In this document: piece after piece, positions 22,418 to 37,008 of the stretch
Numbering within the stretch: the first letter of the stretch is position 1
How the letters are laid out: every line of letters begins with the position of its first letter
NCBI GenBank assembly: GCA_033297075.1
Contig: MU858058.1
Location: 248,001-312,000, forward strand
Source: Rhypophila decipiens
Lineage: Eukaryota; Ascomycota; Sordariomycetes; Sordariales; Naviculisporaceae
Direction: 5' to 3'
Length of the DNA: 64,000 bases
Notes under the pieces: model-generated
What the model was told of the DNA's origin: nothing
The model's database searches: none
What the model saw: only the letters and a program-made list of their open reading frames with translations
Translations under genes and position numbers: made by a program

Positions 22418-23535
22418 TGTGCCGTCAAATAACGATGTTGTTGTCGAATCGCAATGGACGAACCGATGACCAACGTGAAGCGTATCGGGTTAATATCGAT
22501 GTAAAGCAGATATTGCAAAGAAAAGGATCGTAACGTTCCAAGATAATTGGTGTATTTGAGTGAGCATTTTGCGTGATTCTGTCATCAGGGGAAACGTCTG
22601 CTTCTTGGGAGCAGAAAATCAGGAATTGTGGCTTGTTGTCTGATAGCGACACTAACGATGGGGATATTTCTGTATACGACAAGGCTAAATGAAGCGAGGC
22701 ATCTTGAGATTTATTCATGAAAGAATTGATAGGAGCTCGAGGTTATATGGGCATTTTGCTAAGGTACACATCAACATTCCGATGACTCGTTTCGGTGACG
22801 CATCTCATCTGAGGTCGACAGAGCACCTGGAAGTTTATGGTAAGGGCCACAAAACAGCTGATGTTAAAGACGTACACGTGTACCTTCCGGTTCACCATCC
22901 ATCTGAACCTCTTTCCACAGCCCCGCATGGTATCTTCTTAACAGGTGGCGCCTGCCGTAGGTAGCAGAAGCACACACTTAAATACTCACAACATGCTCAA
23001 CAAAGAAGTGAAGGTACCGGCCTAAAGTTGCGTACCATCCGCTTGAATGGGCTCTCGGGTTTGAAATCACTATTAAAATACTGACCATCGCTCAAAATGA
23101 CATCTCTTGGGTTCGAAAAGGATGTCGAGTTGTCGCCGACTTCACCGACATCGTCCCCGTGGACCAGTCGTTTGGTAAGAAACCCAATCAGTCAACGCCT
23201 TTCATGCAGGAAGCCGCTAGCTGTCGCACTCTCCCGCCAAATGGGGAAGGACACGCTACAGGGCCGCTTTGGGCTTGGCCCATGTCTTGGATTTGTTCCA
23301 GTCAAGCTGGAGAAATGCGGCACCACGCCTGGATGCTCAATCCGAGACAGGCGGGTGCTTGCGCGGACAGCAGCCCCAGCGGAGCCCATGGCTTCCAGAC
23401 CGCCGGAGGGGAAGCTTGAGGCAATAGTCCCACCATATCAGTCCTTCTTTCTTATTTTCTTCACGACAGTTCTATCATCCATTCGAATTGTGCTACCTTT
23501 TTTTTGCTAATACTCCAATCATACAGAGTTCCAAG
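22418..23535. promoter_or_regulatory. shared upstream region of the GTPase gene and SEC9
   Basis: About 1.1 kb between divergent genes. Just before the SEC9 start, a pyrimidine tract, TGCTAATAC branch-like string and ATACAG at 23521-23526 look like the 3' end of an intron in the SEC9 5' leader. The 137-codon frame at 23097-23510 is not convincing as a gene. Confidence 0.45.
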
Positions 23536-24925
23536 ATGAAAAAGCTTTTCGGCCGGAAGCACAAGGATGAAGAGACGTCTTCGAACTCATCATTCGGACG
23601 AAACAATCGAACTCCCCAGAACGACAATCCCTACGCCCAGACCAATGCCGATTCTTACGCCAATAACTCGTACTTGAACGCGCAACCATCATATCCGCAG
23701 CCCGCAGGCTCGCAGTCCTCCTTTCGAACCACGCAGCCTGCGTCGCGGGCCGCAGGTCGTCCTGGCTTGCCATCTGGACCCCGCCCTGGCGGTCCTGGTC
23801 AGCAACAGCCGCAGAGACCTTCCTATGGCAGCGAACCGTCGCAATATTCAGGTGCCTCTAAGGGTGGCTCGGGATACAGTGACGAGAAGCTTGGTTCTTC
23901 GGCCGGCTACGGAGCTAATCGCTACGATGCCGGCTCGCCGGCCTACAACAACCGCGGTAGCAATGGATATGCTTCCCAGCGCCCGGGAGGCTATGGAGGA
24001 CTTGACCAGTCTTCCCTTGACTCTACGCCCAACGTCCCTCCTCCTCAGTACAGCGCCACTCAGCCAGGAGGCAGCTGGGATGCACCTGCCAGTCAGGGTG
24101 GGCAAGATCCCTATGCTGATCCGGCTGAAATGACGGAAGAACAGTTGGAAGATGCCCAGGTTCAGGATATCAAACGAGCGACTCATGACACTCGACAGGA
24201 CTCCAAGGCATCTATTGCACGTTCCACAGCGGAGTTGGAGAGAGCGATAGCCTCGGCCGAATCGTCTGGACATATGCTTGCCCAACAATTTGAAAGGATG
24301 GATAAAATCGAGGAAGGCGCAGATATTGCTAGTAAGATGTTCTCCAATCATTAGTTGTGGCAGATTTTGAATTGGGCGCTAACACTGTCTGATAGTCGCA
24401 AGGGCTCGTGAAGGTGGTGCAGGAACCGCAAAACTGGACCGACTCAACAGCAGACCTTTCTTTATACCAGAAGGAGGTAAAAAGAATCGGCAGAAAGATG
24501 TGGATGCGCAAGTCAGGAGGGCACAGGAAGATAGAGAGGCCAAAGAAGAAACCCGCTTGGCTCAGCTCGAAAGGAACAAGAAAATTCAACAAACAATGGG
24601 GATGGGCGGCAAACAGAAACTTCTTGGAGCCGGCAAGGCTGATAAGTATACCTTTGAAGATGACGATGGCACAGAAGCTAGGGACGAAGAGGAAATCAAC
24701 GATGGAATCGAGAAGATGGGAGGACTGGTTGGACAGCTGAATTTCCACGCTCATTCGCTTAACGCTCAGCTGGATGCAGACCCCGACCAGCCAATGCGCA
24801 TCGCTGAGAAGGTACGTATTGCTTTAATCAAGTATATTCATCGTATGGTACTGACTCCTTTCCAGATGACGAAGGCCGACGATAAGGTGACGCGTATCAA
24901 CGCAAGACTCAACACGATTAGATGA
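23536..24925 (+). CDS. SEC9: SEC9 plasma-membrane t-SNARE (SNAP-25 family, Qbc)
   Basis: Exons 23536-24331, 24396-24811 and 24866-24925 give 423 residues. The start MKKLFGRKHKDEE fits fungal Sec9. An Asn/Gln/Gly/Pro-rich region (aa 20-205) precedes two SNARE motifs. The first lies at about aa 225-280, with its ionic-layer Gln at about Q251 (LAQQFERMDKIEEG). A linker contains KLDRLNSRPFF and a basic stretch. The second motif spans about aa 368-423. Its heptad core is regular (I370, M373, V377, L380, A384, L387, L391, then I401, M405, A408, V412, I415, L419, I422), but the ionic position is Asp394 and the next layer is Pro398. Sec9 drives exocytic vesicle fusion with Sso and Snc. A linked patatin NLR lies 4.4 kb away, as in the Neurospora sec-9/plp-1 allorecognition locus. 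Confidence 0.9.
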
Positions 24926-25239
24926 GATTCTGGGTAGGTTATTGGTGCGTTTGAATGGGGAGATGGGTTTGCTTAAGATGGTATTTTTGACGCTTACAAG
25001 ATTGCAACTCTTCTTTCTTACTCTCCATGCTCTAACGCTATAATAAGATTTTTTTTTGGTGGCAAAAGTCTGTCAGACAGAACACCCTTTGACCTGTGGT
25101 GTTAAATTGTGAGATTTTTACTAAACCCTGAAGTGACATTTTGATCATGTATGAAAGGTCAAGCTTCTGCTTCCAGCTGTGCAAAGTATCATATGGCTCA
25201 GGGGTAATTTTTGCCCCTATTTCCACCGTCTTACCAAAA
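24926..25239. other. short convergent gap between SEC9 and DHR2
   Basis: 314 bp of 3' flank for both genes, with a poly(T) run at about 25047-25057; no gene seen. Confidence 0.4.
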
Positions 25240-27643
25240 TCAAAACCCAAGTGCCTCCACAATCCAGGTTGCTTGTATAGCGCTGACCTTCTTAGCGTAG
25301 CTCTTTTGAGTATACACATGCTCTAGGAACATGATGGCCTCTTTCTTCTGCCCATGGAGCACGCTTGCGGGGTGTATTGCTACAACATGTTTTCCATGAG
25401 ACGTGACATAACTGCTGTCAGGCGCAAGGATTGCGGTCTTCAGTGCAAACCCCTTCAAGAAGCACTTGAGGACGTTTGTGGCTTTGTCTGGCGAGATTGG
25501 AGTGAACGGTTGGGGGTCTGGGGGAGGCTGCTCCATCATGCCTTGCTTTACGCACAGAGCTCGAAGCTGCTTTCGGATGTTCACGGCTTGTTTCATGTTC
25601 CTAATGTTGATTTTGCGCGCCTTGCACCACTGAACACGGTCCGCATTCTCGGCGAAGTACAGCTGCATGGTGGTCAGGTACGTTATGATGTCGCCTTCTC
25701 GCCGGTAGAGTTCCTTTCGATAGACCTCGGCTTCCTCCTTGGCTTCTTCGGACTCTATTTGCAGAAATATGTCCTCGCCAGCTGTGATACACGAAATGAT
25801 GTCAATGACTTCGAGTAGGCAGTCGAATTTCGGGTCTGCTGCGGCGAGGAGAACCCTGGCGTATGGAGCAGTGACTGGGAACATAACCATTTTCCGGCCC
25901 AACTCGGTGATCGTACCATCATCGCCAAGTGCGCCTAGAAAATGGAGATGCAAGAGGGCCTTTTCAACTGCCTCGGTTTCTAGGGGATCCATGAGGGGGA
26001 ACTCGAGTACATTATCGATGCCGGTAGCCTTCATGGTTAGAACGGCGCCTAGCAGATCACTCCGCAGGATCTCAGGAAGATCGGCTTCCTCGAGGCCCAG
26101 GTATGAAGACTCTGTGTAAAGTCTGTGGCACTTTCCAGGGCCCTCGCGGCCAGCTCGTCCAGCCCTTTGAATTGCTGCATAGCAGTCAGTAATCGAGTTC
26201 AAAATCAACATGGGTGTAAAACCTACCAGATGACTTGGAGATAGGGCGGGCCAGTAAGGACGACAGAGAAATTTTCGGCCTGAACTGCTTCACTTTCGAT
26301 TTCCCGCAGTCGATGACATACCTGACCCCGGGAACAGTCACCGACGTCTCGGCAATATTTGTAGAAAGAACCACCTTTCTCGTAAAACCGCCTTTGATCG
26401 GCTGGAATGCCTCATGCTGGGCTTCGATAGACATCTGTCCAAAGAGAGGAAACACTTTGATCTTGGGAACATTTGCCGGAAGTGTCGCAGCATACTCTTC
26501 GATCAGCCTCTGGGCCGACTCGATTTCCTCTTGTCCGGTGAGGAATGCTAAGATATCGCATCGCCCATGTTTGTCTTGAAGCGGCTCCTCTGTATGAATC
26601 TTGAATATCTTTTTGAGCATGGAGTCTTGGATATCTGCAACTGGCTTGGGCGTATGGGTGATCTCGACGGGAAATTGCCGTCCCTCAATTTGCATAAACT
26701 GGACGGAGGACGAGTTCTCTGCTCCTTCAGTGGGTGCAGACTCCATGGCCTCGGGAGTTACGTCTGAGAAAAACCTCGTGATGCTCTCGACATTGGCAGT
26801 GGCGCTCATAATGACAACTTTGAGGGGGATGCCACCCCGTCCTGCTTTGTCGCCCGCTATGATTTGCTTCAAAAAGCCACAAAGGAGATCCACATCTGTG
26901 CTGCGTTCGTGAATTTCGTCGACGAGGACTGCGCTGTACTGTCTGAGATGCGGATCGCGGAGAAGCTCCTGAAGAAGCATACCTTCGGTGAGGTACTTGA
27001 TTTTCGTGCCCTTGGGGACCCGGTGGTCAAATCTGACGGAGTAGCCAACCAGGCCTCTGGAATATGAACTTTGAGCGTTCCCTGGTTTGCTTCCTTTGTC
27101 TCCCTTCAAGGGCGTGCCTGCTTCACAAGAAACTCGATGGGCTAGAGTGGTGGCTGCTACTCGTCGCGGCTGAGTGATGGCTATCATGCCTCCAACGGCT
27201 GTTTCTTCAGTCCGCCCATTTGCCTCAATCTTGACCTTCTGTCTCTGGCACCACTTTTCCTGATATAGAAACTGCGGTACTTGAGTACTCTTACCAGAGC
27301 CTGTTTCACCGACAAGGACCAAAACGTCGTGCTTTTGCAACCTGCGTCGAATTTCATCCTGATGGGACCAAAGCGGAAGAGCTTGCCGAGTTGAAAGATA
27401 CTCAGCGGCACCTGATGGTTTTCTGCTCGGTACGAACTTCGTCGTCTTCTTCTCCTGTGCTGTAGAATCTGGACTTTTCGATTCTTTGCTGCTGGGCTCA
27501 AGGGCTTGGTCTGGCTTGGTGGTAGTCTCGGTTGGGCCAACGTCCTTCTTAGGCTTTTTGGTGAGGTATCCCTCTAACGAGATTGTCTTGTTGCCAATGC
27601 GAATCACATCGCCCGAGGCCTCTGATTTCCTCTTTTTAGACAT
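25240..27643 (-). CDS. DHR2: DEAH-box RNA helicase, DHR2/DHX33-like
   Basis: Exons 26227-27643 and 25240-26174 give 783 residues. Motifs in order: I GETGSGKST, Ia TQPRRVAA, II DEIHER (Ile in place of Ala), III SAT, then STNIAETSVTVPG and QRAGRAGREGPGK. Winged-helix and OB-fold regions typical of DEAH/RHA helicases follow. The 52-bp intron (26175-26226, donor GTAGGT) lies between ISKSS and AIQRAGRAGR, just before motif VI. Yeast Dhr2 is a nucleolar helicase required for 18S rRNA processing, and DHX33 is its animal relative. The start at MSKKRKSEASGD is chosen because the longer frame upstream is not family-like, and MSKKRK gives a basic nuclear-type N-terminus. It lies between SEC9 and SDHAF3. 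Confidence 0.88.
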
Positions 27644-28600
27644 TTTGTGTCGTTTAAATGTGCACAAAAAGCAGGTGATGTATGCGTGAGACCTCTTTTG
27701 GTGGAATTTGTGTTTGTCGGTATGGGTTGCTTCGAACTTGAAGTTTGGCAGGATTGCTACAGAACCCAAATTTTGCTTCACAGCAGAGGTTGATATGCCT
27801 TGACTGGATACCGTATCGGACGATGTGGGGCTTGTATTCTAATCATTTTGCAGTACGGGTTACCGATACATGTATCTTTTCGACACACTACAACAGAATA
27901 AAACAAGGCCAAAACTGATGCAAACTTTCACATAAAGTCCTTGAGAAAGGATCTCAAACGATCAGTCAGTTATTGTTCATGCAGGGAGACGCTGGTTAAG
28001 AACCCGAGGGCCTTTGGAGAGAGGACGGATACGCACAGCCATCCCACTTTAACTGTTACTTTACAGACATTACCTTTCCGTATGGTGTTAGTACATAGGT
28101 AGTGATTCAAACCTTACGAGGACAACAACCGTATAGTATTATGAATGAAAACTAATGTTCTCTGTACCTTTATCAAATATATACTACCTAAGTAGGCAGT
28201 ACCTTATATACGACTGAATACAAGAAAAGTTATAAAGGTAGTTGTCATAACTTTCTCTCTACGACTACTACACCCAACCCTAACCCTACCCTATCCAGTT
28301 TGGTGATGTGATTCCACTTTCATTACGGAGTACATCAATGTCAGGTATAGCGGTAATTACTTGTATGCACTACCGGTAATTCCGGCTGTTACCGAAGACC
28401 ACGCCCTGTGGTTTTCACAGCGCAACTATCTCGTCGCCTCAAGTTCCAAGAGAAGACTCGCTATCAAGCTATATTTACTGCAATAATATTGAAGCTGCAT
28501 TTCAAGTAAAGCAGTAAGAGAATTAATCCAATTCCACCATAACTTGGAGCTAACAGTAGTGACAGACGAGAGTTCGTTGCAGGGCAGCACAAAAGCAGCA
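27644..28600. promoter_or_regulatory. shared upstream region of DHR2 and SDHAF3
   Basis: Roughly 950 bp between divergent genes. It contains a telomere-like stretch AACCCTAACCCTACCCT at 28276-28292, and palindromic ACTACCTAAGTAGG-type sequence near 28186. The AACCCTAA string resembles telo-box promoter elements known upstream of ribosome-biogenesis genes in other eukaryotes; function here is not shown. Confidence 0.4.
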
Positions 28601-29123
28601 ATGAGGGTGGCCACACGTTTGATGATGGCATCTGCCATGAGGTCAGCAGACGGCCGCTCTATGGCACTGCTTCCTCCAATTCCACTTTATCGGCGTCTTC
28701 TCAGGGCTCATCGCAAATATCTGCCTAAAGAAATGAGACTCCTTGGCGACGAGTACGTCAAGTCAGAGTTTAGAGCGCATCGTGAGGTTGAAAATCCAGT
28801 GCATTTGGTAAGTTCAATGAGACGGATTCAGCTGGGGGGCAAGGCCAAAGTTCTCACCAGATACAACACCCACCGAAACAGATAGGCTTCTTGACGGAGT
28901 GGCAACTTTATGCACAAAAGATCGAAGGTGATTCCTGGGTTGGCGAGAAGCTTGACAAAGGCAAGATCGAAAAGATGAGCGGTATGTTCTCTGGACGTCA
29001 GGCGGGCGTTGGGCTACAAGCTAACACAGCACATCTCAACCAGACGAACAGCTTGGTCAGCTATATGAACTTATGAAGGCAATCCAGAATCGCGGACCTG
29101 ATGAGGAGTCCGGCTCATCATGA
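28601..29123 (+). CDS. SDH7: succinate dehydrogenase assembly factor 3 (Acn9/Sdh7), mitochondrial
   Basis: Exons 28601-28807, 28882-28981 and 29044-29123 encode 128 residues. The N-terminus [19 protein letters not shown] is Arg-rich without acidic residues until position 16, like a mitochondrial presequence. The LYR motif follows in [17 protein letters not shown], then [20 protein letters not shown], typical of the ACN9/SDHAF3 family. These LYR proteins act in the matrix and protect or mature the Fe-S subunit Sdh2 during complex II assembly; SDH2 itself lies at 46511. The introns are 74 and 62 bp. An in-frame ATG at 28544 would add 19 residues but spoil the presequence. Its stop lies 193 bp from the stop codon of the convergent NLR gene. 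Confidence 0.92.
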
Positions 29124-29316
29124 GTCGAGCAGGACATGCTCTTGGGGCCATTCTCCTTCGGGATATGTCACTCCTCATTCGGCACTGTATTGATATTAGC
29201 ACCAACATTGTACAAATATACGCGAATTTCAAATATTGTTTTGGGCATATAGGTTAGACAGGTCGTGCACCGGTCTCCTTCATGCGCCAGACATTCAGTA
29301 TTCCTGCTTGCTACTT

Positions 29317-32300
29317 TCAGTGAACCAGCGAGTTGCTGTTCACTGCATCAGCACCAATATATTTGACATTGTTCAGATTAATGATTACCTCCGGTTGTTT
29401 CCCTTTTCTATCTTGCTTTGATTTTGTAGAGCGTCTCTCCCCTTGTGTATGAACTATGGAAATCCCGCTGTCTTGCTTCCTTCCCTTTTTAGTCTTCGTT
29501 TTGTTCTCGGAAGCTGGTCCCTCCTTCCTCCTAATGATGGGTGCCCCCTCTTGCTTGCCTTCTTTCGAATTTGATGGAGCACCAAGCGGCGGCCCGGAGG
29601 AAGGTGCTGGCCCGGAGCCTTCTTCGCCTTTCCGCTTTCCTTCGGTTTCAGAGCCCGTGGCATCGCCCTCAGGGCGTTCTTTGCTGGGGTCCTGCAAGGA
29701 CTGCTGAGAGTTTCCGGGTCCATCCCAAACCAGGTCGAGTCCGCCAAAGACCTCCAGGAGCCCATCTGGAGCATCGGGTTCGGTCTTGAGCCGCTCCCGC
29801 AGTTCTCGATGACCAGTCTGACCACAGAGTAATACGTTACACTCATTCGTGTAAATATCCTCGTCGTCCAAATAGTCCCCCCATTTTTCCCTTGGGATCC
29901 GCGCTTGTATCTTCAGAGCCAATTGTTTTCGTCTTTCTTCATTCATACAGATAGTTTCACAGGATTTCAAATGTCCCTCTATAAGATGGGTATGTTCGCT
30001 GTGTCGGCCTGTGGTAACAATCGATTTTTCGAAGCATTCTTTCTGCAGGGCAAGCCCATCCTGAACCCGCCCCTCATGGGCCCAAGCCAAACCGATCTGA
30101 GACTTGAAGTAAAGAGTTTCGTGATGATTTTCACCGTAATACTTTCCACAACGCGCGGCCCCTTCCTCTGCTATAATTTTGCCACAGGTTATCTTGTTCA
30201 GACTTATATACTCTAGAGCGAGCTGCTTCAGGCACCACATTGCATTTCTCGAATATGGTCCAAAATAACCGAGGTCCCGGTCATAGTCGTTCCAGAAGTT
30301 CACCAGTTGGTCTGCTATGTCTTGCGGTGGTGTTGGCTGCCTGTCGTTTTCGATGACAGCTTGGTGCTCTGCCAAATCCGATTCGTCTTCGAAAGGTTTG
30401 GATGGGAGGAGGGCCGCGTCGTGTAAAAGATGGCTCGTGAACCTGAGCTGGTGATCGATGACCATGATGCGCTCTTTCAATATCTGCGCCCTTTCCATCT
30501 CAAGCTCACTGCCATTCTGTTTGCATAGGGCGATTCCAATACGACACCACCTTCTTGCCTTCGTGTAGTTACCCATTTTTATGTAAAGATCAGTCAGTCT
30601 AGCGATAGAGCTGATAGTCTTCGAGTGCCCTCTCCCGTACTTGTCGTGTCTTTGCTTCCATACGGTTGCTGCTATTACCTCCGCCTCTCGAAACTTCCCC
30701 AAGGATGCACATACTTCCATCAGGTAGTTCATTGGAACCCAGTGCGCCTCATCGTCACCAGTTACTTCCACAGTGCACTCGGAGAGCACTTTCCTCCATT
30801 CCTTTTCAGCATGCTCGAGTGAAATAGTCTCCAGCAGCCGAGCGAAAGCAACATGGTGGTGGATCTCAGTACGTGTATCCTCCCGAGATTTGACATTTCT
30901 CTGGCAAGCGAGGACATGGGGGTAGACTCTTCGACGGAACCCATGGTACCACTTTTCATTTGACAGACACCCAATGGAAGTGAACAAGAGCGTCCTAGCT
31001 GGGATGGAGTATCCAGTCCTCTCGGCCTCGTTCATCCTGTCTCTGGCCCAAGAGTGAACCAAAACATGCATCGACAGGGATCGGGTACGCTCATCACGCC
31101 TGACAAGCGACAACGACTCTAGGAGGGCAACGGCTTCACGATACCCTAAGAATATCCACTCGCCATCCTCGTCGGCCTCGACAAGGCTGTCGAGACGGTA
31201 TTTTCCCACACCCAGTTTTGTACATTCTGGTGGCCGCCCCCATCTCATCTCCGCAGCCTGGGAAAAGATATCTTCAACAATGTGTTCGTTATGATAGAAA
31301 CAAATGCTGTTCAGGATCTTGATGGCCATCTCAGCAATTTCAGCCCGGATGGCGCCCTTCTTCAGTTTGGAGAGACTCCGAAGATCTTCATACGAGACAT
31401 CAAACGTGGCGTAAACGGCCTTCTCTTGGACGGGAGCATCGCTGTACAGTGATCCACTACTCAACATTTGCGTTTTTTGCTTGACTAAAACTGGCAGGTA
31501 CTCATTCAGGGAGTATCTCATCATGCTTATCGAGGCCCCTGCCTGTTCAATGGCAAGAGGCAAGAATCCGAGCTCCTTCACGATCGGCAGAGCTGATGCT
31601 CGAAGCTCTTGCGAGGCAAGAGGCTGGTGACTGACTTTCAGCAGCAAGTCAACAGCCTCCGTCTCTCCCATTACCTCCACCTCCAAGGTGTCGGTGTCGG
31701 GTAGGGTAAGCTTCATAACACTCCGCCTACTGGTATACAAGACGTTTCCCCTGTCGGAGCTGGGAAGATAGCGGGTGAAGTCCTCATCGGGACAGTTGTC
31801 CAGAATAAGTAACCATTCGTCTTTGGTGGTAGCCATCCAATGCAGAACCCTCGATATGTCGTTGGCCTGAAAGCCCTGCTCGGCCGAGATTCGCATATAA
31901 CATTCCTCGATGGTGGCTTCGTCGGTCGCATCGACGAAAAAGATGTGTTGGAACCTGATTTTCCAGTTAGGCAAGAGGTACAAAAAGACACCCCAAAAAA
32001 CTCACCTCTCTTCTGCTTCCATAAGCTGCTTAAACTTCAGCGCGATCTGGGTTTTCCCAACTCCACCCATGCCATAAAGCAGGAATTGTCGTCTCGGCAT
32101 CGGATTGTTCTCGCGCTTGTCGAAAAACAAGGACAACTTTTCCAGAATCTCCTCCCTGCCTGTGAAGCATCTGGTGGCGGTTCCACCTGTGTTCGCCCGA
32201 TGTTTATCAACACGTGTATACTTCTCATTGGGAAATACTAAGCGTCGACATGGTCAGCATCGGGTTCCTTCCTTCGTTCTTTCTTTCTTTCACCTTGCCT

Positions 32301-33470
32301 CCAAACCTCACGACCGAAAACTTACAATTGCCTAGCACCCAGCCCTGACTCTTTCTTTTGCAAAGAATCTCCGCCACCCTTTCGATATCTTGTCTAGCCG
32401 TGACTGAATCGAGATAATCCTCCGTCATGACCTTGAGTTCCCCGATCTTCTTGTACTTGGTCATGCCGACCTTGGCCGCAGCATTGGGAACAGTAAAACG
32501 GAAATAAGTCGAGGGAATGTCCCTAAAAATCTTTTGCACCTCGTCCTCGACGCGGTCTGAGTCGGTCGTGACGTTCTTCATCAGCTTCACGGCCTGCACA
32601 GCACGTGTAAAGCTGCCCTTGAGATGCTTCTCCCGAGTCCCCGTCCCCAAACTGACCACACAGCCAAGCTTGCACGAAGGATCCAGCACCTGCATCGCCT
32701 CGTTCAAGACCTCCGAGGTCGGGTTATTGAACCCCATCGCAGCATCAATGAGCTCCTCGAGACGGGTCCCGCTCTTGACAATCATTGGCTTGAAGTACGA
32801 AGGCGCTGCCGTCGTCGCCCGGGCGGCTTCCCAGATCTTGATGTCCTGATCCCAGTCGTCGTCGGCCAGGTAGCCTCTTATCCGCTTGGGGGCTCGCTGG
32901 TTCTGCGCGGGCAGGGCGCAGACGAAGGACCTGCCCATCCGATGGTGCTGAGAATCCCCCGCCGGGTCTTTCATCAGCTCGTTTGCGCCCATCCGTTGGA
33001 CAAGATCCCGCATGGCCTGGGCGAGAGGTTCCTCCCCGAAGCGCGACGACAAGGAGAATCTCATGTTGCGACGGCTGAATATTGACTTGGCTAGCGAGTC
33101 ATATGCGTCTAGCGCGTCCTGGGTCGATAGTCGAAGTCGACCAACTAGGAGAGCGACGAGGCTATCGATTCCATGTAAGTCTCTGCACATGTATCTTCAT
33201 CGACGCCGGGTTGTTTAACTCACCCGCCCGTACTCGTCCCTCCAATGAGGTGGAAATACTCGCACGGTTTCGGGAGCTCCGCGAGCTGCTCTTTCTCCTG
33301 GATCCTCTTCATGATCCTGTGAAGGATGACGAGTTCTGAGACTCCGCGGATCCCACCGCCATCTAAGTGACCAACCACATATGTTAGATAAGGATGAGCA
33401 CACGGACAGTTGGTGTCATTCACGTACCCAGAGAGAGGAGGTTATACGGGCCATTCTCAAGAGCCACCAT
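29317..33470 (-). CDS. patatin / NB-ARC / TPR fungal NLR (PLP-1-like candidate)
   Basis: Five exons on the minus strand: 33428-33470, 33224-33362, 32326-33161, 32006-32237 and 29317-31954, giving 1295 residues. The patatin domain (aa 1 to about 320) has the oxyanion motif DGGGIRG, nucleophile Ser58 in GGTSTGG and the dyad Asp200 in LIDAAMGFNNP. NB-ARC follows: P-loop YGMGGVGKTQ (about 394-403), Walker B LLILDN (about 465-470), TSRR, GFLPLAIEQAG and MHVLVHSW. A region with TPR-like helices (about aa 720-1010) comes next, then a Lys/Glu/Pro-rich tail of over 100 residues. Domain order matches fungal NLRs in which patatin phospholipase is the effector and repeats sense the ligand. Introns: 33363-33427, 33162-33223, 32238-32325 and 31955-32005. 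SEC9 is 4.4 kb away. No stop or frameshift is seen. Confidence 0.88.
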
Positions 33471-34843: not shown

Positions 34844-37008
34844 TCATGCAGCAAACGTGGCTGGAGCGTCCAGGTACCAGGTGGCATCACCATCTGGGTC
34901 CAATTCCTTGCTGGAGTAGCCGTTTCCGAGATAGGCAAACCGGTTCTGGGCGGCATTGTCGTAGACGTAGTCCCAGTCTTCACCTCGGAAGCTCTCGAGC
35001 ATGTGGAAGAAGTGTGTCCTGCTACCTGGGTGAAGGGCAGTCACGGGCCCGTCAAGCCGGCCAGCCTTGAACCATGACCGGCCTGGGGCTGCCCAGGCAG
35101 TGCGCGGCATAAAGGCAGAAATATGCTCAAAGTAATCATCAACTGCGGCGTTCGAGGGCGACATGGCTCTGATGCCCTCTGTCTGGCATTTCTTGATGGC
35201 TCGGGCGATGTACTTGGCAATGTGCTCGCTCAAGGTGAAGACGCTGCCATGTCCGATTGGTGCGTTGGGCCCGAGAAAAGCTGGTACACAGTCCACGTTA
35301 GCGATTTCATGCAGAGTAACTGGTGGCTGAATGTCAAATCTGTCCAAGGCAGCCGGGGCCCGTTGTTTGTCAGACTCACTGAAATAATTTGGTAGTCCAG
35401 CAACGGCGCACGACATATAAGCCTTCGGCACATTCTTTTCCCAGATATCCTGGAGATTGCCCTCGCGTCCAATAATGGGGAATCTGGGGCGGAAACTTGT
35501 TTCGTAACCTGTAGCGCAGATGATAGCATCGACTTTCACTACTTCTCCAGACTCGAGCTCGATGCCCTCAGCCACAAAAGCGCGAATGGGTCCGACCTTG
35601 ACCTCCACATTTGGCCTCGACAAGGATTGAAGGTATGCGTGCCCGGGAGTCAATCTCCTACAACCCAAAGGAAAGGTCGGGATTAACGCCCTACAGAGCT
35701 TCTCGTTGCCTCCCAGCATGGCCGTCATGTACTCCGTCACCTTGGCCTGGGCATACTTGTGAACCGGGTTCCCAGATTCGACCTGTAAAGTTTTAGACAA
35801 CCACCTCACCAGTGAGAATCTGACAACTTACAATCGGCAGTGTTTTGTTCAGCTCAACCTCAATGGCCTTGACAAAGCGATGGTAGAACTCGGGGTCGGT
35901 CTTGAACCTTGCGATTGTCTCGCGTGAGAAGTTCTCCTTCTCGTCCAAATGAATCTCGCCCATAATGTCCTGAGCCTGCCCCGTCATTTTCCAGGCCTGG
36001 ATCCTCGGCGGTGGAAGCCATGTGGGCGTACGGATGATGTGGGATATCTTCTTTGCGCCTGTATGCTGTTAGCTTGTACATGGAGTTGGGAAGTAAGATA
36101 GAAGATTACCCGGCTGTAACTCGGGGAATACCTGAATTCCGGTGGACCCATTACCGATGACGGCAATTGTCTTGTTGGAATGGTCAAAGTTCTTGGGCCA
36201 ACGTGCCGTATGAATAAGAGTGCCCTCGAACTTCTGAATGTCCTTGATCTCGGGCCACTTCCAGTTGCTAAGCCAACCAATTAGTCAGCCGTTTTGATGC
36301 CGGGCCACTGGGGCCATGGCTGTTAGTCATTACGTACTTGAGAATTCCTGTCCCATTCACAAGAAAGTCGGCGTGATCCAGAAAGACTGTGCCTAGCTTC
36401 AGGTCTTTGATACGCAGCTGCCACTTTGCTTCATCCTCGATCCAACGGGCCGAGACAATCTGGTGCGAGGTCTTGATGGAATCTCCCATTCCCTCTTCGT
36501 TGCACACTTCACGGAGATAGCTCTCAATCTCTTGGGCAGTAGCGTGGAAGTTGGACCAATCGTGCTTCGGGCGCCAGGAAAACTGATAGCTATGGCTCGG
36601 GATATCGCATCGGCAGCCTGGATAGCGGCTTTCAAACCATGTCCCCCCCACTTCGGCATTCTTATCGTAGATGACGAAGTCGTAATTGTCGAGAGCAAGT
36701 CTCAGGGTGCGGATCATGTTCAGGCCACTCAAGCCTGCTCCAATTCCGACAATCCGTATCCTCCTTGCCGAGCCCAGCGGTTGTTCCCTCACATTGTAAT
36801 TTGCCAGGGTTACGATGTCACGGGATTGGGAGACGGCTGTGGTAGTCCCATGTCCCACTCGATTGGGCTCAGTAGGATGTAGCACTGTAACCATCCTTGC
36901 TGAAGGTTGGGGGATGATCAAGTCCAGCAAAGGTCGACGAGAATTTTGAGATGTTTGCGAGTGAGTGCCTCGCTGTTGGTCGATTGGACCGACGACGGGG
37001 AGAGACAA
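34844..37008 (-). CDS. Baeyer-Villiger-type flavin monooxygenase
   Basis: Four exons on the minus strand: 36338-37008, 36110-36267, 35832-36058 and 34844-35782, giving 664 residues. An N-terminal stretch of about 80 residues precedes the FAD-binding GIGAGLSG. Then come EVGGTWFESRYPGCRCDIPS and the class I Baeyer-Villiger fingerprint FEGTLIHTARWP (FxGxxxHxxxWP), followed by the NADPH-binding IGNGSTGIQ and ATGYETSFRP. Such enzymes insert oxygen next to a ketone using FAD and NADPH; the substrate cannot be told. Introns 36268-36337, 36059-36109 and 35783-35831 are 70, 51 and 49 bp. M39 (MVTVLHPTEPNR) is an alternative start. It lies upstream of the NLR on the same strand, with no other biosynthetic genes nearby. 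Confidence 0.88.

Follow-up and report, generated by a model that had tools for sequence, protein, structure and literature searches.

The linked SEC9 and NLR genes

The 64,000-nucleotide stretch of DNA analysed here, referred to as the window, is from the dung fungus Rhypophila decipiens (Naviculisporaceae, Sordariales) and carries a gene for SEC9, a Qbc t-SNARE of the SNAP-25 type, that lies 4.4 kb from a gene encoding an NLR in which a patatin-like phospholipase domain, an NB-ARC domain and TPR-type helical repeats are joined in one protein. SEC9, the protein proposed to be guarded, is found at 23536-24925 on the forward strand, with exons at 23536-24331, 24396-24811 and 24866-24925 that encode 423 amino acids. 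The NLR, proposed to be both sensor and executioner, is found at 29317-33470 on the reverse strand and has five exons (33470-33428, 33362-33224, 33161-32326, 32237-32006 and 31954-29317) separated by four introns of 51-88 bases, giving a protein of 1295 amino acids. The genes for DHR2 and SDHAF3 occupy the interval between the pair. This is the layout that an earlier note on the DNA had described, and the exon models, Pfam domains and public gene models all agree with it, with SEC9 identical over its full length to the R. decipiens model QBC37DRAFT_414323 (P0121) and the spliced NLR 100% identical over 1295 residues to QBC37DRAFT_479573 (P0001) of the same species.

The linkage appears to recur in two relatives, PSN637 and V8F06, in the former as judged from the equal length of the contigs bearing the two genes and in the latter from locus tags. 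The V8F06 NLR is V8F06_000067 (P0002) and its SEC9 is V8F06_000070 (P0122), which implies that two genes lie between them with the same spacing as in the window. As just 24 patatin matches, which are pieces of genes, were found in the R. decipiens assembly of 45.7 Mb and 408 contigs, and the spacing is repeated in V8F06, the linkage of the pair is more than chance.

The earlier note had also matched the domain architecture of the NLR to that of PLP-1 of Neurospora crassa, which is borne out, as patatin, NB-ARC and helical repeats are all found in one intact protein. Pfam places the patatin domain at residues 12-212 (expectation value, E, 4.3e-20; positions 32708-33437, reverse strand), NB-ARC at 390-569 (E 5.5e-11) and DUF7779 at 624-728 (E 1e-7). 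TPR families are weak and below the cut-off (E 0.018-0.046), with the helical-repeat array recognised from an AlphaFold2 model and a fold search. The patatin motifs DGGGIRG (15-21), GGTSTGG (55-61) and IDAAMGFNNP (199-208) are present together with the P-loop GMGGVGKT (395-402), thus the gene was rightly called complete.

Divergence between sister strains

The V8F06 proteins P0002 and P0122 bear the name R. decipiens, and the strain is probably a different species from that of the window. Strain CBS 256.69 was sequenced by the Joint Genome Institute and once labelled R. decipiens, is now R. myriaspora, and has an average nucleotide identity of 95.20% to R. decipiens PSN293, which is given as the only member of the Naviculisporaceae with a genome published before (PMC12734299). 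The window strain is most likely PSN293, and V8F06 is probably CBS 256.69 and so probably R. myriaspora, the tag itself being absent from the main text of PMC12734299. What is compared is a pair of sister lineages rather than members of one population; with a genome identity of 95.2%, they are probably two species.

Between these lineages the NLR is divided into two very different parts. The patatin domain is identical at 199 of 201 residues and the NB-ARC region (364-570) at 203 of 207, with residues 1-850 as a whole identical at 826 of 842 (98%), a further eight being gapped at the start, perhaps through a gene-model fault. In residues 851-1295 (29317-30654, reverse strand), which the AlphaFold2 model gives as the outer TPR helices and a disordered tail, just 281 of 422 aligned residues are identical (67%) and 23 more are gapped (Fisher 2e-56 against 1-850). 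A near-invariant effector half combined with a variable reader half fits a division of labour in which the TPR part reads and the patatin domain kills. Conversion of the C-terminus from another locus was considered and rejected, as the V8F06 C-terminus matches the window gene alone (E 9e-162, the next match having E 0.10) and, among the 36 of 57 candidates scored, the window NLR is matched elsewhere in the assembly no further than residue 885. Near the end of the NLR, at 29350-29382, the motif INLNNV(K/R)YIGA is common to both strains despite the diverged tail before it.

SEC9 is identical between the two strains at 378 of 423 residues, with the differences unevenly spread. Residues 1-199 are identical at 186 of 199 (93%) and the linker at 67 of 72, compared with 29/42 for the N-terminal half of the Qb helix and 26/37 for that of the Qc helix (69-70%), whilst the C-terminal halves of the same helices are identical at 31/34 and 29/29. 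The variable part of Qb covers residues 210-260 (24163-24315, forward strand), in which the zero-layer Q251 is kept, and that of Qc residues 358-390 (24671-24769, forward strand). In spans picked after the data had been seen, 26 of 67 positions differ compared with 19 of 356 elsewhere.

It had been expected that all four genes would share a block of elevated polymorphism. The NLR and SEC9, the two genes compared, do show excess divergence, but it is limited to the SNARE helices of SEC9 and the C-terminus of the NLR. The excess ends inside both genes and most of each protein is conserved, thus a four-gene block is not seen in the two genes compared. The two genes in the interval are a DHR2-type DEAH helicase (25240-27643, reverse strand), with helicase C, HA2 and OB domains above the Pfam cut-off, and SDHAF3 (ACN9, LYR family; 28601-29123, forward strand; Complex1_LYR_2, E 1.5e-22), the exons of which (28601-28807, 28882-28981 and 29044-29123) were spliced by hand and re-translated. 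Beside the NLR an open frame at 34844-35827 has no Pfam match at E 0.001 and by eye resembles a piece of a flavin monooxygenase.

The contrast was set against control pairs chosen by the authors. For the NLR, identities before and after residue 800 are 93/81, 88/76, 84/66, 94/69, 92/75, 80/54, 88/81 and 86/75% in eight pairs, a ninth (P0008/P0005) lacking the C-terminus. The window pair gives 98 against 70% around the same residue, that is 2.1% differences before and 29.9% after. Its gap of 27.7 points is the largest, followed by Diaporthe (26.4) and Podospora (24.6), and its ratio of difference rates, 13.9, is also the largest of nine pairs, compared with 4.9 in Podospora and 1.6-3.2 in the others. 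On these alignments fast C-termini are a general trait of such NLRs, and it is the degree reached in the window pair that is special.

For SEC9, three Hypocreales pairs have helix N-halves that are better kept (Qb 86-95%, Qc 83-97%) than residues 1-199 (56-83%). Two of these pairs have a low Qc C-half (48-52%), in gene models that apparently end wrongly. Cercophora newfieldiana compared with Immersiella behaves in the same manner. The Qc N-half of the same Cercophora protein is 65% identical to that of Echria against 80% in residues 1-199, and 62% identical to that of Lasiosphaeria (P0125, L. hispida) against 71%.

Relationships of PSN637 and PSN640

A further line of evidence comes from PSN637 and from PSN640, which belongs to another genus. 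In SEC9 residues 1-199 the identity of PSN637 is 91% with the window and 76% with PSN640, and in residues 200-423 the corresponding values are 66% and 71%. Positions joining PSN637 to PSN640 against the window and V8F06 number 0 in residues 1-199 and 24 in residues 200-423, compared with 32 and 22 sites private to PSN640 (Fisher 1.3e-7). At the 24 joining sites outgroups carry the window state at seven and that of PSN637 and PSN640 at 11, and agree with neither at six.

The NLR of PSN637, a partial record of 858 amino acids, also falls in an unexpected place, outside a group of the window, V8F06 and Apodospora (100/100 in a 21-row tree). An NLR group made up of Rhypophila alone is rejected (approximately unbiased test, p-AU 0.00018), this group having been named after a 47-row tree had been seen, whereas a tree of 2798 genes has the genus as monophyletic (PMC12734299). 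No PSN640 NLR was found among the 120 listed matches of 725.

We read the PSN637 pattern as what haplotype classes older than the species would leave, which is a mark of long-term balancing selection. The sequences could alternatively reflect a paralogous copy, introgression or rapid change along a single branch. Two observations may bear on the trans-specific or highly diverged haplotypes looked for at this locus, namely the unexpected place of PSN637 at both genes and the excess divergence of the sister strains, both of them made between lineages.

An altered SNARE

SEC9 appears to be the only gene of its kind in the assembly. Queries with the SEC9 of the window, Cercophora and Cordyceps gave no other SEC9, although the assembly may be incomplete, and the stray pieces returned are at chance level (E 2.3 and 0.5). 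The protein itself is barely recognisable as Sec9 by sequence comparison. In a PDB search the Cordyceps SEC9 matches yeast Sec9 with E 1e-32, whereas the window SEC9 matches it with E 1.4, which is not significant, and matches SNAP-25 with E 0.03. Its homology is drawn from relatives and from the N-terminal half rather than from the match to yeast. Other Sordariales SEC9 proteins are also far from those of Hypocreales (~32%).

The layer register used here is that of SNAP-25. Anchored on the zero layer, both SNARE motifs of the window SEC9 align with the Cordyceps SEC9 free of gaps. Amongst the four Naviculisporaceae SEC9 proteins compared, the zero-layer Gln of Qb is kept in all four, but that of Qc is gone in all four, replaced by Asp in three and Thr in one, and the +1 layer of Qc is Pro in every one. 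In the window protein these residues are D394 (24779-24781, forward strand) and P398 (24791-24793, forward strand), just downstream of the variable stretch of Qc. Apart from these two, the 32 layer positions hold non-polar or small residues or the zero-layer Gln of Qb. In the AlphaFold2 model, made from 12 aligned sequences, the Qc helix is broken at 394-396; the mean confidence is 90 for the block and 61 overall. Elsewhere in the Sordariales the Qc Gln is kept in three of four aligned SEC9 proteins, the fourth, from Echria macrotheca (P0131), having His. The second SEC9 protein search, from 2478 candidates, returned 22 proteins; SEC9 of N. crassa and of Podospora did not appear among these, probably through the word filter of the search, so that their absence carries no information on them. 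The other SNAREs of the assembly have by eye the usual zero layers, Arg in the Snc type and Gln in the Sso type, and as these are kept the Qc Asp has no obvious compensating change in a partner.

SEC9 may have an additional 5' exon, at 23097-23174 and 23527-23535 (MTSLGFEKDVELSP...), that splices in frame to the MKK start. The SEC9 models of V8F06, PSN637 and PSN640 include this exon and a further stretch bearing GCLP, which the window does not have. The exon could mark a longer isoform, or it could be an artefact of annotation.

Relatives of the NLR and comparable systems

The NLR protein search gave 725 matches, of which 120 were listed, and the trees were drawn from these. A quick tree built from 47 of the listed rows, over residues 1-780, places the window NLR in a clade of 15 rows with a support of 98 (Shimodaira-Hasegawa-like approximate likelihood ratio test, SH-aLRT) that includes all three N. 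crassa rows among the 120. Podospora PLP-1 and VIC2 of Cryphonectria parasitica fall in other clades, with the backbone open. In a careful tree of 21 rows long branches meet elsewhere, including those of VIC2 and Podospora PLP-1. We infer that the N. crassa rows are PLP-1 and PLP-2 on the basis of their architecture and of a contig common to two of them, rather than of locus tags. A distant NLR phylogeny had been named as a point that would speak against a PLP-1-type pair, and in both trees the window NLR is instead close to the N. crassa rows. What the trees show is that closeness; the NLR may or may not be orthologous to Podospora PLP-1 or VIC2.

Within the assembly, other matches of the NLR are 25-47% identical, rising to 61% over the first ~55 residues. 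A paralogue could be hidden at such low identities, the N. crassa rows being no more than 38-45% identical; no second locus that matches both patatin and NB-ARC within one gene's length was found among the 36 of 57 candidates scored. Other patatin loci (G000:C256:5413-6457, C155:40126-41144 and C125:47846-49215) are 29-61% identical over parts of the patatin region, and some of them carry in-frame stops.

The nearest known system is plp-1/sec-9 of N. crassa, where SEC9 is likewise linked to a patatin/NB-ARC/TPR NLR of the same clade and SEC-9 is reported to be bound by PLP-1, with death requiring the lipase and the P-loop (PMC12881547, PMC7159315). The C-terminus is also the variable part in NLR pairs of the Neurospora clade (93 vs 81% and 88 vs 76%). 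The two differ in that R. decipiens has two housekeeping genes between the pair, and in that N. crassa is described as having both plp-1 (NCU09244) and plp-2 (NCU09245) (PMC8982394), unlike the R. decipiens assembly with its single patatin and NB-ARC match amongst the candidates scored. Podospora PLP-1 has the same architecture and partner, and a pair of these proteins has the same conserved first part and variable C-terminus (94 vs 69%), but it lies in its separate clade and P0048 is 36% identical over 64% of the query. In C. parasitica a patatin-like lipase and sec9 are reported at one incompatibility locus, vic2 (PMC10324583); vegetative incompatibility protein 2 is homologous to the window NLR (P0030, 37% over 65%), yet distant, and its long branch leaves its placement in the 21-row tree unsure. 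Bcvic1/Bcvic2 of Botrytis cinerea is also described as pairing an NLR with a SNARE, but the NLR is of the NACHT/ankyrin kind and the SNARE is a syntaxin (PMC11138114). Linkage of NLR genes to sec9 is reported at allorecognition loci of four other fungi, where it is seen as convergent and involves distinct NLR genes (PMC10890737). Among the papers listed in searches of the literature there was no treatment of the present locus, nor a report of one like it in the Naviculisporaceae.

A probable guard and allorecognition pair

The locus is likely to be a guard and allorecognition pair of the PLP-1/SEC-9 type, an explanation that is held with good confidence. In this explanation the C-terminal TPR superhelix of the NLR would sense the SNARE helices of SEC9, and the NLR would stay inactive as long as SEC9 is matched. 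Were SEC9 mismatched, either because it came from a non-self partner by fusion or because a parasite had changed it, NB-ARC would oligomerise and switch on the patatin phospholipase, which would damage membranes and kill the fused cell. Linkage would keep matched alleles together across the two housekeeping genes. Binding, oligomerisation, lipase-driven death and the allele-keeping role of linkage are carried over by analogy from N. crassa and Podospora. The basis computed here is the intact genes, their linkage, the place of the NLR in the clade of the N. crassa rows, the lack of another SEC9 in the assembly and the divergence of the SNARE helices and NLR C-terminus. The driver may be allorecognition, parasite guarding or both, and reviews propose that the two may both hold. 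The proposal that the pair is orthologous to, or convergent with, that of N. crassa is partly supported, by the architecture, the NLR clade, the excess divergence and the oddities of PSN637, whilst the four-gene block that went with it is not borne out.

A number of results count against this explanation. The divergence data are from one strain pair, probably of two species, and are not a population sample. When SNARE motif spans are defined by layers, 20 of 106 SEC9 positions differ compared with 25 of 317 elsewhere (P 0.002), a modest clustering. The differing core layers, 4 of 32, are all changes from non-polar to non-polar, and compared with 16 of 74 other motif positions there is no significant outward bias (P 0.42). 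Nor are NLR differences biased to one set of TPR helices (25/67 vs 29/83, P 0.86, on a rough helix assignment), both tests being made on SNARE layers and TPR helix sets. Support for the clade with N. crassa drops to 81/75 in the careful tree. The part of the NLR after residue 800 is less conserved in 8/8 control pairs with C-terminal data, so the contrast between strains is partly generic, and the Qc N-half is variable (62-65%) in two of three SEC9 pairs from other Sordariales, which may or may not have a linked NLR.

The last two of these points, and the lack of outward bias, also favour incidental linkage, in which SEC9 of these fungi would be evolving rapidly for reasons unrelated to the NLR, as C-termini of NLRs do everywhere. 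That is very improbable, given that the window contrast exceeds all controls (13.9 vs 1.6-4.9), that the pair is linked in relatives, that both genes are odd in the same strain, PSN637, and that NLRs linked to sec9 are reported from the four other fungi (PMC10890737). An arms race without allorecognition is a more substantial rival, although rather unlikely. It shares the guard mechanism, with the NLR guarding SEC9 where a parasite factor would attack exocytosis, divergence between species being directional and incompatibility at most a by-product. Fixed differences would suffice for this, as the best-compared strains are probably two homothallic species (95.20% genome identity, PMC12734299), and it is in keeping with the loss of the Qc zero-layer Gln in all four Naviculisporaceae proteins compared and with the guard model proposed in reviews (PMC12881547, PMC10197012). 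It does not readily account for the change of relationships along SEC9, where PSN637 is nearer the window in residues 1-199 and nearer PSN640 in residues 200-423, and the outgroup states at the joining sites are somewhat more in keeping with lineages that split long ago than with a single burst on the window branch.

A different question is whether SEC9 is still a working SNARE. It could be a decoy, watched by the NLR but no longer serving exocytosis, which would then depend on another, undetected Qbc SNARE. The Asp and Pro of the Qc layers, the break in the predicted helix and the lack of a significant match to yeast Sec9 all suit such a role; it is nevertheless quite improbable, since three queries gave no second SEC9 beyond chance-level pieces, albeit with a gap in the assembly possible, and the layers other than D394 and P398 are non-polar or small or the Qb Gln. 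Under the guard and allorecognition explanation SEC9 is most likely an extremely remodelled SNARE. As to what remodelled it, it can be tentatively suggested, at somewhat less than an even chance, that the sole exocytic Qbc t-SNARE of the family has been driven out of the canonical SNARE code by coevolution with the linked NLR, leaving it without the Qc zero-layer Gln and with prolines in or close to the zero and +1 layers, but with secretion retained on an ionic layer of a Gln-Gln-Asp-Arg kind. If true, the sequence of an essential membrane-fusion protein would be set by immune surveillance and not by secretion.

Implications

An intact, linked locus of the PLP-1/SEC-9 type is thus found in the Naviculisporaceae, the unexpected part being the remodelled SNARE, and the family would join the few fungi with a SEC9-linked NLR. 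The sister strains would provide a natural matched series, as the effector half of the NLR is near-identical between them whilst its proposed sensor half and the SEC9 helices that it would guard are not. Such a series indicates, with no more than sequences to hand, where each partner would recognise the other, and segments to be swapped can easily be chosen from it. How far the exocytic ionic layer can change in nature, and whether surveillance by a guard overrides the constraint on an essential protein, are questions that the odd SNARE would put to the test.
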